From Kiloniellales bacterium (lineage in GTDB: Bacteria; Pseudomonadota; Alphaproteobacteria; Kiloniellales; JAKSDN01): 64,000 nucleotides of DNA. The translations under genes were made by a program, and so were the position numbers. Position 1 is the stretch's first letter, and every line of letters starts with the position of its first letter. The notes under the pieces were generated by a model. That model saw only the letters and a program-made list of their open reading frames with translations. It had not been told where the DNA came from and did not search any database. The stretch covers positions 1-64,000 of the forward strand of contig JANQLT010000181.1 in assembly GCA_028280455.1 (NCBI GenBank), read 5' to 3'. Shown here in pieces: positions 60,309 through 64,000 of the stretch.

Positions 60309-60360
60309 TTGGCTGTCAACAAAGAGCCGATTATGGATATCTCTTAGTGCCAATTTGGCA
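60309..60360. promoter_or_regulatory. Divergent regulatory region of PNPOx operon and mocR
   Basis: TTGGCT (60309-60314), a 17-base spacer and TATGGA (60332-60337) could drive mocR. A minus-strand TTGACA (60319-60314) overlaps it and could serve the PNPOx operon. TGCCAATTTGGCA (60348-60360) is a perfect palindrome with a one-base centre, 9 bases before the mocR ATG, and its half-site (TTGGC) recurs at 60309. These repeats are good candidates for MocR binding. Confidence 0.5.
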
Positions 60361-60369
60361 GATTGTCCC

Positions 60370-61932
60370 ATGACGATCGTCTCGCCGGATATCCCTCGCC
60401 CGGGCCGCCCGCGCGGCGTCCGCCGACCGGGCGGCCAGCGGGCCCCGCTGCTGGCCCTGGCCCTGGAGCGCGACGGCCGCGAGCCCCTGCACCGCCAGCT
60501 CTACGGCCAGCTCCGCGACCACATCCTGGCCGGGCGGCTGCCGGCCGGCGCCCGCCTGCCGGCCTCGCGCAGCCTGGCCGAGGAGCTCGGCTGCTCGCGC
60601 AACACGGTGACCGGCGCCTTCGACCAGCTCCTCTCCGAGGGCTACCTGGAAGGCCGCGTCGGCGCCGGCACCTACGTCTCGCGCGAGCTGCCCGAGGGCC
60701 TGCTGACGGCGGCCCCGGCCGCGCCGGCGCCCGGCGGCGCGCGGCCGAGCCCGGCCCGGCGCCTGTCCCGGCGCGGCCAGCGGCTCGGCGCGGCGGCGCG
60801 CGAGCCGCTGGATCCCGCGGTCGGGCCGGCCTTCGCCATGGCCAACCCCGACACCGAGCACTTCCCCTTCGACGTCTGGGGCCGCCTGCTCGGCCGGGTC
60901 TGGCGCCGGCCGCCCCCGGCCCTGCTGCGCGGCGGCGACCCCGGCGGCCTGCCGTCCTTGCGGGCCGCCATCGCCGGGCACCTGCGGGCCGTGCGCGGCC
61001 TCGATTGCGGCGCCGGGCAGGTGCTGGTGACCGCCGGCGGCCAGCAGGCGCTGGACCTGGCGACCCGGGTGCTGCTCGACCCGGGCGACGCCGCCTGGAT
61101 CGAGGAGCCCGGCTATGCCGGCCTGCGCGCTGCCCTGGCGGCGGCCGGGGCCCGGGCGGTGGCGGTGCCGGTCGATGCCGAGGGCCTGTCTGTCGCCGAG
61201 GGCCGGCGCCTGGCGCCCGAGGCGCGGCTCGCCGCCGTCGCCCCCTCGCACCAGTATCCCCTCGGCGTCACCATGTCCCTGGCCCGCCGGCTGGAGCTGC
61301 TCGACTGGGCCGGCTCCCAGGGCGCCTGGATCCTGGAGGACGACTACGACAGCGAATACCGCTACGCCGGCCGGCCGCTGACCGCCCTGCAGGGCCTGGA
61401 AGCGGCGCGCGCCGGCGAGCGGCAGGTGATCTACGTCGGCAGCTTCTCCAAGGTGCTCTTTCCCTCGCTGCGCATCGGCTATCTGGTCGCGCCGCCGGAC
61501 CTGGCCGAGGACTTCCTGCGCGCCCGCCGCGCCCTCGACGATCACCCCTCGAGCATCGTCCAGCCGGCGCTGGCCGCCTTCATCGAGGAGGGCCACTTCG
61601 CCGCCCATGTCCGGCGCATGCGCCGGCTCTATGCCGGCCGCCAGGCGGCGCTGCTGGCGGCCGGCGCCCGCCATCTCGGCGGCCTGCTGTCGCTGGCGCC
61701 CGACCCCGCCGGCATGCACCTGGTCGGCGCCTTCGAGCCGGCCTTGGCCGCGCGCCTGGGCGACGTCGAGGCGGCCCACCGGGCGGCCGCGGCCGGCGTC
61801 AGCGTTCGGCCGCTCTCCGCCTTCTATGCCGGGCCCGCCCGCCGCCGGGGCCTGCTGCTCGGCTATGCCGGCGTGCCCGACGCGGCGATCGAGCCGGCGG
61901 TGCTGCGCCTGCGCGACGCCTTGGCGGCTTAA
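60370..61932 (+). CDS. MocR/PdxR family regulator (GntR helix-turn-helix fused to aminotransferase domain)
   Basis: The 520-residue protein (start 60370, MTIVSPDIPRPGRPRG) has a GntR winged helix at about residues 35-105 (EPLHRQLYGQLRDHILAGRLPAG, LAEELGCSRNTVTGAFDQLLSEGYLEGRVGAGTYVS). A fold-type I aminotransferase-like domain follows, with the PLP contacts VTAGGQQALDLATRVLLDPG and EDDYDSEYRY and the PLP lysine in YVGSFSKVLFPSLRIGYL. Such regulators sense PLP or an amino-compound aldimine. The divergent PNPOx-like operon is the obvious target. Confidence 0.92.
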   Translation: MTIVSPDIPRPGRPRGVRRPGGQRAPLLALALERDGREPLHRQLYGQLRDHILAGRLPAGARLPASRSLAEELGCSRNTVTGAFDQLLSEGYLEGRVGAGTYVSRELPEGLLTAAPAAPAPGGARPSPARRLSRRGQRLGAAAREPLDPAVGPAFAMANPDTEHFPFDVWGRLLGRVWRRPPPALLRGGDPGGLPSLRAAIAGHLRAVRGLDCGAGQVLVTAGGQQALDLATRVLLDPGDAAWIEEPGYAGLRAALAAAGARAVAVPVDAEGLSVAEGRRLAPEARLAAVAPSHQYPLGVTMSLARRLELLDWAGSQGAWILEDDYDSEYRYAGRPLTALQGLEAARAGERQVIYVGSFSKVLFPSLRIGYLVAPPDLAEDFLRARRALDDHPSSIVQPALAAFIEEGHFAAHVRRMRRLYAGRQAALLAAGARHLGGLLSLAPDPAGMHLVGAFEPALAARLGDVEAAHRAAAAGVSVRPLSAFYAGPARRRGLLLGYAGVPDAAIEPAVLRLRDALAA

Positions 61933-61994
61933 CGTCCCGGCCGGAGCGGAACGGCCAGGTCATAACTTTGACCTTACGGCCGTTCACCGAGCTT

Positions 61995-62010
61995 AAGAAT
62001 CTCTTAACCA
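61995..62010 (+). promoter_or_regulatory. CtrA binding site upstream of the first paralogue
   Basis: TTAA (61995-61998), seven bases, TTAAC (62006-62010) is an exact match to the CtrA consensus TTAA-N7-TTAAC. It ends 52 bases before the ATG at 62063, a normal place for activation of a promoter. A matching site occurs before the second paralogue. Confidence 0.75.
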
Positions 62011-62062
62011 CGCGGGCGCCAGGCTGCTTCCAGCGCGGCGATAAAAGGGGAGTGCGCCTGGG

Positions 62063-62845
62063 ATGCCATCGTCCAGTTTCGCGGCCGAAGTCTCTCAGGC
62101 CCTGGCCTTCTGCCGCGCGCGGGCGATCCGGCAAAAGCCGACCTTGCGCGCCTGTCTGAAGGGCGGCCCGGCCCTGTTGGCCCTGGTGCTCATGGTCTCG
62201 GCCGCCGCCCTGCACGAAGAGAGTCCGCCCTTGTCGATGAAGGCGCCGGTCGTCGCGCCCGCGCCGATGGACCTGGAGCGCGACGGCTGGGTGGCGCTGT
62301 TCAAGCTCGGCAACGAGGTGATCGAGACCCGCCCGGCGCCACTGGAGTCGCCCCTGCTGGCCGCCACCGAGAGCCAGCGGGCCGGCGAGACCGGAATCTG
62401 GCTCAAGCCCAGCGAGCGCAGCTACCTCTCCGGCGCCAGGGTGACCGCCATCGACCCCGAATCGATCGAGCCCAAGGCCGGCAAGCCTTCGCGCCGGGCG
62501 CTGCTCAGCCAGCGCTTCGAGACCACGGCGGCGCCGGAGTCGCCATTCGCCGCCGCCCTGCGGCGCGCGGGCACGCAGGGCTACCGCGAGCGCTTCGCCA
62601 GCCGCGCCGGCCGGCTGTCCCGCTCGCTCACGGTGCTGGCGGCTCGCGCCGAGGCCTTGGCGGAGCGGGACCGGGCCAGCGTCGGCGGCACCCGCCTGCA
62701 ACCGACGGTTGCCGAACAGATCCGCCGCAATAGCGAATCCATGCCCACGACCCGCCACCTCTCCGACCTGCTGGTAACCGGCCCGGGCGCCGCGCCCATC
62801 GCCCAGCAGGCGGCGGCTTCCTCCGCCCTCAGCCCGGGCTCCTGA
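62063..62845 (+). CDS. Unrecognised membrane-anchored protein, paralogue 1 of a CtrA-linked pair
   Basis: The 260-residue protein has a basic N-terminus (FCRARAIRQKPTLRACLKGG) and one hydrophobic segment at about 34-50 (PALLALVLMVSAAAL), predicting a single membrane anchor with the remainder periplasmic. No named domain is recognised. Two stretches are shared with the following gene: PESPFAAALRRAGTQGYRERFA and TVAEQIRRNSESMP, then HLSDLL, in the last 100 residues. The region between is Ala/Pro/Glu-rich and probably disordered. The GGGGAG before the start is 11 bases away. A perfect CtrA site lies in the promoter. Confidence 0.75.
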   Translation: MPSSSFAAEVSQALAFCRARAIRQKPTLRACLKGGPALLALVLMVSAAALHEESPPLSMKAPVVAPAPMDLERDGWVALFKLGNEVIETRPAPLESPLLAATESQRAGETGIWLKPSERSYLSGARVTAIDPESIEPKAGKPSRRALLSQRFETTAAPESPFAAALRRAGTQGYRERFASRAGRLSRSLTVLAARAEALAERDRASVGGTRLQPTVAEQIRRNSESMPTTRHLSDLLVTGPGAAPIAQQAAASSALSPGS

Positions 62846-62857
62846 GCCGGCGCCAGC

Positions 62858-62875
62858 GGCGGCCGAAAGGCCGCC
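62858..62875 (+). terminator. Hairpin between the paralogues
   Basis: GGCGGCC (62858-62864) and GGCCGCC (62869-62875) form a perfect 7-bp stem closed by a GAAA tetraloop just after the first paralogue's stop. No U-run follows. It suggests the two genes are separate transcription units. Confidence 0.45.
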
Positions 62876-62883
62876 CGACACAC

Positions 62884-62899
62884 TTAAGTCTCGTTTAAC
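62884..62899 (+). promoter_or_regulatory. CtrA binding site upstream of the second paralogue
   Basis: TTAA (62884-62887), seven bases, TTAAC (62895-62899) matches the CtrA consensus exactly. It ends 87 bases before ATG 62987. The same spacing, orientation and following bases (TTAACCAC) are seen in the first site, as if the promoter was duplicated with the gene. Confidence 0.75.
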
Positions 62900-62986
62900 C
62901 ACAGCCCGGGCAGACTAGCGTCCGGCCTTCGCGTGCTCGATCCGTGCGCGAGGCCAGCGCCCGAAGCCATATCTGGATATTCAGCC

Positions 62987-63724
62987 ATGCGTCACCATTG
63001 CTCACGCTTCATTGCCAAGCGTGCCCAGGCTGTCCTTAGCTATGCCAAGGAAGGCCTCGCCCTCTCGGCCCTGCTCGTCCTCTTCTCGGCCGCGATCATG
63101 GAGAAGGGACCGACGCCGCAGCTGCCGCCCGCGGCCCTCGCCACCCCCGTCTCGATCGAGCAGTTCGACCTGCGCCTGGTCGAGGCCCTGGCCGACGAGG
63201 AGCCGCAGGCCGTCGCGACCCGCGAGCCGCTCGAGGCGCCGGCGCGATTCCACGCCAGCGCCATCGAGCCGCTCTTCGAGCCGGCGGCCGGCAGGGTGAA
63301 ACCGGTCAAGCGGATCGAGCCCGTTCGCAACGCCGCTGTCCCGGCCCCCGTGGCGAAGCCGGTCGAAAGGCCCGCGCGTCTGCGCCTCTCGACCCGCTTC
63401 CAGGCGATCGCCCAGACGGAGTCGGCCTTCGCCGTGGCCCTGAAGCGCGCCGCTGCCGAAGGCTACCGGGAGCGCTTCGCCCAGGCCGGCAGCGTCGCGG
63501 TTGCCGGCAAGGCGACCGAGCCGCGCGCCAAGGCGCAGAAGGTGGAAAGCCGCCCGAAACTGCGCAGCCCTGCCGCTCAGGTCACGGTCGCCGAGCAGAT
63601 CCGGCAGAACCAGGCCAAGATGCCCTCGACCCTGCACCTCTCGGACCTGCTGGCGCGGAGCGTCGAGCTGGCCGCGACGGCGCAGCAGGCCGCCGCGCCG
63701 CAGGCCGGGGCGTCCAGCTCCTAG
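62987..63724 (+). CDS. Unrecognised membrane-anchored protein, paralogue 2 of a CtrA-linked pair
   Basis: I use ATG 62987 (MRHHCSRFIAKRAQAV), giving 245 residues; a GTG at 62933 would add 18 residues. A basic stretch precedes one hydrophobic segment at about 25-38 (LALSALLVLFSAAI), then a Pro/Ala/Glu-rich region with VKPVKRIEPVR. It shares with paralogue 1 the stretches TESAFAVALKRAAAEGYRERFA and TVAEQIRQNQAKMP, then HLSDLL, and an Ala/Gln-rich tail. The conserved C-terminal part is likely the functional end, perhaps a protein-interaction motif exposed in the periplasm. I know no family with this motif. Confidence 0.72.
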   Translation: MRHHCSRFIAKRAQAVLSYAKEGLALSALLVLFSAAIMEKGPTPQLPPAALATPVSIEQFDLRLVEALADEEPQAVATREPLEAPARFHASAIEPLFEPAAGRVKPVKRIEPVRNAAVPAPVAKPVERPARLRLSTRFQAIAQTESAFAVALKRAAAEGYRERFAQAGSVAVAGKATEPRAKAQKVESRPKLRSPAAQVTVAEQIRQNQAKMPSTLHLSDLLARSVELAATAQQAAAPQAGASSS

Positions 63725-63743: not shown

Positions 63744-64000
63744 TCAGCGGTTCATCCGGTTCTCGATCAGGTCGTCGACCACGGCGGGCTCGGCCAGGGT
63801 CGAGGTGTCGCCGAGGTTCGAGTAGTCGTTCTCGGCGATCTTGCGCAGGATGCGGCGCATGATCTTGCCCGAGCGGGTCTTCGGCAGGCCCGGCGCCCAC
63901 TGGATGAAGTCGGGCGAGGCGATCGGGCCGATCTCCTTGCGCACCCACTGCACCAGCTCCTTGCGCAGCTCCTCGGTCGGGTCCTCGTCGGCGTTGAGCG
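63744..64000 (-). CDS. acs: Acetyl-CoA synthetase, C-terminal end (cut by window edge)
   Basis: The minus-strand frame reads [92 protein letters not shown] is the C-terminal motif of AMP-forming acetyl-CoA synthetases, including the catalytic lysine that protein acetylation switches off. The stop is at 63744-63746; the rest of the gene lies beyond 64000. It is convergent with the second CtrA-linked paralogue. Confidence 0.92.

Follow-up and report, generated by a model that had tools for sequence, protein, structure and literature searches.

Near the end of the window, by which we mean the whole 64-kb stretch of DNA analysed, two genes that we designate A and B lie in the same orientation between a gene for a MocR-type regulator and the end of an acetyl-CoA synthetase gene (Table 1). 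Both are real coding sequences, with GC content at third codon positions (GC3) of 0.916 for gene A and 0.902 for gene B, compared with 0.69-0.74 for the antisense open reading frames. For gene B we preferred the ATG at 62987 as the start codon; with the alternative GTG at 62933, the leader after the predicted transcript start near 62923 would be only ~10 nt long.

Table 1. Features of the A-B locus, the third paralogue and boxed loci in relatives. Coordinates are those of the window unless another contig is named.
Feature	Position	Strand	Description
MocR-type regulator	60358-61932	+	flanking gene; GntR and aminotransferase domains
Putative CtrA box A	61993-62008	+	TTAAGAATCTCTTAAC, continues CACG; 54 nt 5' of gene A ATG
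Gene A	62063-62845	+	260-aa coding sequence; basic N-terminus, hydrophobic stretch ~33-50, Pro/Ala-rich linker, motif 1, motif 2, Ala-rich tail
Gene A motifs			motif 1, ESPFAAALRRAGTQGYRERFA; motif 2, TVAEQIRRNSESMPTTRHLSDLL
Hairpin GGCGGCC-GAAA-GGCCGCC	62858-62875	+	between gene A stop and box B; no T-run
Putative CtrA box B	62884-62899	+	TTAAGTCTCGTTTAAC, continues CACA; 87 nt 5' of gene B ATG
Gene B	62987-63724	+	245 aa; layout as gene A
Gene B motifs			motif 1, ESAFAVALKRAAAEGYRERFA; motif 2, TVAEQIRQNQAKMPSTLHLSDLL
Acetyl-CoA synthetase, C-terminal end	63744-64000	-	646 aa, runs beyond the window
Third paralogue (L022)	G000:C7:1776-6200	-	1474-aa open reading frame
Relatives with extended box	L080 (G002), L101 (G003), L091 (G007), L086 (G002)

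The proteins encoded by A and B are paralogues, sharing 36% identity over 211 aa (E 1e-20). Their best-kept parts are two motifs, ES-FA-AL-RA---GYRERFA (motif 1) and TVAEQIR-N---MP-T-HLSDLL (motif 2), within which GYRERFA and TVAEQIR...MP-T-HLSDLL are identical in the two proteins; the original prediction had noted GYRERFA and TVAEQIR...HLSDLL as shared. Different codons are used at 30 of the 83 residues that A and B have in common, which rules out a fresh duplication of the DNA and indicates that the similarity is older and held at the protein level. Each protein carries one N-terminal hydrophobic stretch. The original prediction described both as one-anchor proteins; the single stretch was confirmed, but it may be either a membrane anchor or a signal peptide that is cleaved off, two possibilities that the sequence does not separate. 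AlphaFold returned no confident fold for either protein (pLDDT 46 for A and 52 for B, pTM 0.17) and placed helices at both motifs with low confidence, suggesting that the shared module probably consists of flexible linker interspersed with short helices. The models did not reach the quality that a fold search requires.

The original prediction could name no family for either protein, and our family searches support this. Neither protein matched Pfam or NCBIfam at E values up to 10, a search that also found no OmpA domain in A or B, and the shared module matched nothing in PADLOC or among PDB sequences and reached only a chance-level E of 0.12 in PHROGs. The module was likewise not found in the order, of which 62 further genomes were searched (six of them from the same family), nor in about 385 genomes of the class and about 399 of the phylum, which are overlapping samples. 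No relative appeared in GTDB 220 contigs (queried with B and with a three-way alignment), IMG/VR or plasmids; these contig scans match short peptide words and have a lower sensitivity than profile searches. Weak matches in G019, G071 and G289 were rejected for stop codons within the match, and those in G054 and G709 for covering motif 2 only; an E value of 5.6e-4 is expected about 0.2 times among 399 genomes. Within a genome set in which this species is the sole representative of its genus, the family seems confined to one genus-level lineage.

Both genes are preceded by an exact TTAA-N7-TTAAC box, with TTAA-CCAC read at its 3' half, in agreement with the original prediction except that the first box starts at 61993, two bases before the 61995 given there. 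The two are the only exact occurrences in the window, where 0.01 are expected, and two boxes were reached in 0 of 100 shuffles of the window. Across the 5.94-Mb genome the pattern occurs 26 times against 2 for the reversed control; these occurrences correspond to 19 distinct places, 7 of which read both ways. The longer form TTAA-N7-TTAACCA occurs 8 times against 0 for its reversed control. From these 26 oriented occurrences in the 5.94-Mb genome, we calculate a chance of ~5e-4 that a correctly oriented box falls within 250 nt upstream of a given gene. No sigma-70-like promoter or intrinsic terminator was found in the A/B region. The hairpin that separates gene A from box B is strong (-18.6 kcal/mol, z -1.67), with a GAAA loop, and was not scored as a terminator; together with the box of its own, it suggests that gene B need not rely on read-through from gene A. 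Most CtrA-activated promoters of Caulobacter carry a single site at -35 (PMC11264516), and a full CtrA motif at -39 has been interpreted as activating (PMC4287350). If the boxes at our locus occupy the -35 position, transcription would start near 62032 for gene A, ~30 nt before its ATG, and near 62923 for gene B, 64 nt before its ATG.

The genome encodes a genuine CtrA. Using Caulobacter CtrA as the query, we identified a gene at C149:75049-75735 whose product shares 69% identity with the query over 229 aa; the second-best full-length match reaches 39%. Further exact boxes in this genome lie before mraZ, several genes for PAS-type sensor kinases and a penicillin-binding-protein-like gene, and in relatives TTAA-N7-TTAACCA precedes genes for a Flp pilin, a bactofilin, a DivK-like receiver and a ParB-like protein, these names being assigned by reading translations and not by profiles. 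Genes of this sort would be expected among the targets of CtrA. The corresponding sites in this genome (G000 C125:6531, C117:8503, C191:12012, C30:34463 and C146:89497) trace the outline of a putative CtrA regulon.

To look for additional members, we used a profile built from A and B to search the order, represented by 63 genomes, and recovered one further protein, from the same genome, on contig C7. It aligns through three collinear matches that cover the N-terminal hydrophobic region (weak alone), motif 1 and motif 2, and these total 52.3 bits, whereas none of 5000 shuffles scored above 10.8. Like A and B, it is basic at the N-terminus and contains a single hydrophobic stretch with small residues at its end; a cysteine lies in that region (GSAC), with a -3 residue atypical of a lipobox. 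Residues 332-1082 (~750) form an Ala/Glu/Arg-rich repeat of helix type, with 40% Ala, no Pro and a period of 14, and the C-terminus carries an OmpA domain (PF00691, E 5.6e-11, 43.1 bits against a curated cut-off of 27.2). Fully extended, a 750-residue helix would measure ~110 nm, far longer than the width of the periplasm, making a straight membrane-to-membrane strut unlikely. Relatives encode OmpA proteins as well; we rejected these as orthologues of the large member, as their identity to it, at 25-35%, is confined to the OmpA part, and they have neither motif and show no box within the flanks examined.

The gene for the large protein is preceded, 173 nt before its ATG, by the exact box TTAAGCATCGGTTAACCA. 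Because this paralogue was found by protein similarity alone, its box is an independent test of the link to CtrA. An exact box thus stands upstream of all three paralogues in the genome, at 54, 87 and 173 nt from the respective ATGs, as expected of members of a CtrA regulon, in which an exact or near-exact box is suitably placed upstream. The assembly is a draft with 4.93% estimated contamination and the large gene lies on a separate contig, whose membership in this genome is argued by its box and by its homology to A and B. This third, much larger boxed paralogue goes beyond the original prediction and strengthens its CtrA reading, as do the genuine CtrA and the boxes of typical targets; the role in division, polarity or motility suggested there is a hypothesis.

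We found no flagellar, chemotaxis or pilus genes adjoining either A or B. Downstream, ~2.2 kb past gene B and just outside the window, a response regulator with a single receiver domain and, immediately after it, an Hpt-domain protein are encoded (G000:C181:65948-66991, L021:5949-6992), divergently from the acetyl-CoA synthetase gene. The acetyl-CoA synthetase itself is 77-84% identical in relatives. In one relative of the same family (G002:C308, L036), the acetyl-CoA synthetase and MocR genes are adjacent and convergent without A or B, suggesting that the pair was either gained in the present lineage or lost in the other.

Collectively, these observations are best accommodated if A, B and the 1474-aa protein constitute a lineage-restricted family of exported envelope proteins, each activated by CtrA from its own promoter, with the large member acting as a scaffold; we assign this reading as a whole a probability of roughly 0.4. 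Its parts differ in strength, with CtrA regulation of the three genes well supported by the predicted sites and the export of the proteins and the scaffold mechanism inferred from their sequence features. Phosphorylated CtrA would bind at the -35 position and activate all three genes at one stage, and A, B and the large member would all be exported. The two conserved helical motifs may serve as contact surfaces, as their conservation and predicted helical state suggest, through which A and B would interact, either between themselves or with the large member. The OmpA domain would tie the large member to peptidoglycan, allowing it to act as the scaffold, and A and B, as abbreviated versions of the module that lack both the coil and the OmpA domain, would be its membrane-proximal partners or competitors. 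A more specific version, in which two small exported proteins and an OmpA-anchored coiled scaffold make up an envelope apparatus under CtrA, with a new interaction module and stage-specific assembly at, for example, the pole or division site, is a conjecture that we regard as doubtful.

One could instead suppose that A and B are CtrA-controlled proteins of the motile stage, accessory to the flagellar pole, chemotaxis or a pilus, and that the large coiled protein is related to them by ancestry only. CtrA controls flagellar genes in every order studied so far, and its first role is believed to have been in motility (PMC8116508); the genome encodes flagellins, in three copies and a weaker fourth, and the same type of box precedes a Flp pilin gene in a relative. 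Against this stand the actual neighbours of A and B, a MocR regulator, an acetyl-CoA synthetase and, ~2.2 kb off, the receiver and Hpt genes, with no motility genes adjoining, and the lack of A/B homologues among the relatives searched, and we consider a motility role unlikely. The flagellin genes themselves (L107, L108 and L109, on G000 C240 and C155) are unusually long open frames of 810-841 aa. An equally unlikely account holds that A and B are young fragments, born when the large gene's promoter and 5' region were duplicated and inserted between two conserved genes, and that they are transcribed from the CtrA promoter copied with them but have little or no function. Their narrow taxonomic range, their likeness to the N-terminal part of the large protein and the abutting MocR and acetyl-CoA synthetase genes of a relative would all be expected of such fragments. 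However, both frames are intact with normal GC3, gene B retains an exact box of its own, and the persistence of the motifs at the protein level amid low identity elsewhere, with changed codons at 30 of the 83 shared residues, points to selection.

The boxes themselves also admit other interpretations. CtrA represses from some of its sites, and a Caulobacter motif near -14 of a transcription start has been interpreted as repressive (PMC4287350), so that CtrA might act here as a repressor and not as an activator. The three distances to the ATGs, by contrast, leave space for a start ~40 nt past each box, which is the usual activating layout, and a sigma-70-like promoter is absent nearby; repression at these boxes accordingly strikes us as quite improbable. 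Least credible of all is that the boxes are chance AT-rich words with which CtrA has nothing to do, a view hardly compatible with an expectation of 0.01 per 64 kb, with the genome-wide excess over both reversed controls (26 against 2 and 8 against 0), or with an exact box in three of three paralogues, the third of which was found regardless of its box.

Should the preferred reading of a CtrA-activated envelope family hold, it would suggest that a lineage may add its own, otherwise unfamiliar proteins to the ancient CtrA circuit. All three copies retain the exact box, which is rare in a genome of 70% GC, and if the motifs are contact surfaces they would represent a new module by which exported proteins of small size are tethered to a giant coil that is itself bound to peptidoglycan.

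Comparison with known systems places the three-protein set closest to a CtrA-controlled envelope scaffold, by analogy. With the CtrA regulons of Caulobacter, Sinorhizobium and Magnetospirillum it shares exact, well-placed boxes, a CtrA of 69% identity and boxes before typical targets, and membership in such a regulon is supported by the predicted sites and the presence of CtrA; the A/B family differs in not being among the CtrA targets named in the literature compared. The third paralogue resembles OmpA/Pal-type proteins with helical or Pro-rich extensions in its export-type N-terminal signal and C-terminal PF00691 domain. It departs from them in its 750-residue, period-14 coil and two N-terminal motifs, which are absent from the OmpA proteins of relatives, while A and B depart further in having no OmpA domain. 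The great length of its uninterrupted predicted helix also makes the third paralogue reminiscent of another membrane-associated protein of Alphaproteobacteria, the growth pole ring protein GPR/RgsE of Rhizobiales. GPR is described as having two N-terminal membrane segments, a mostly cytoplasmic bulk and apolipoprotein-like repeats, with no mention of an OmpA domain (PMC8262873), whereas the third paralogue has a single N-terminal segment, ends in an OmpA domain and gave no match to apolipoproteins, suggesting that the likeness to GPR is one of form only.
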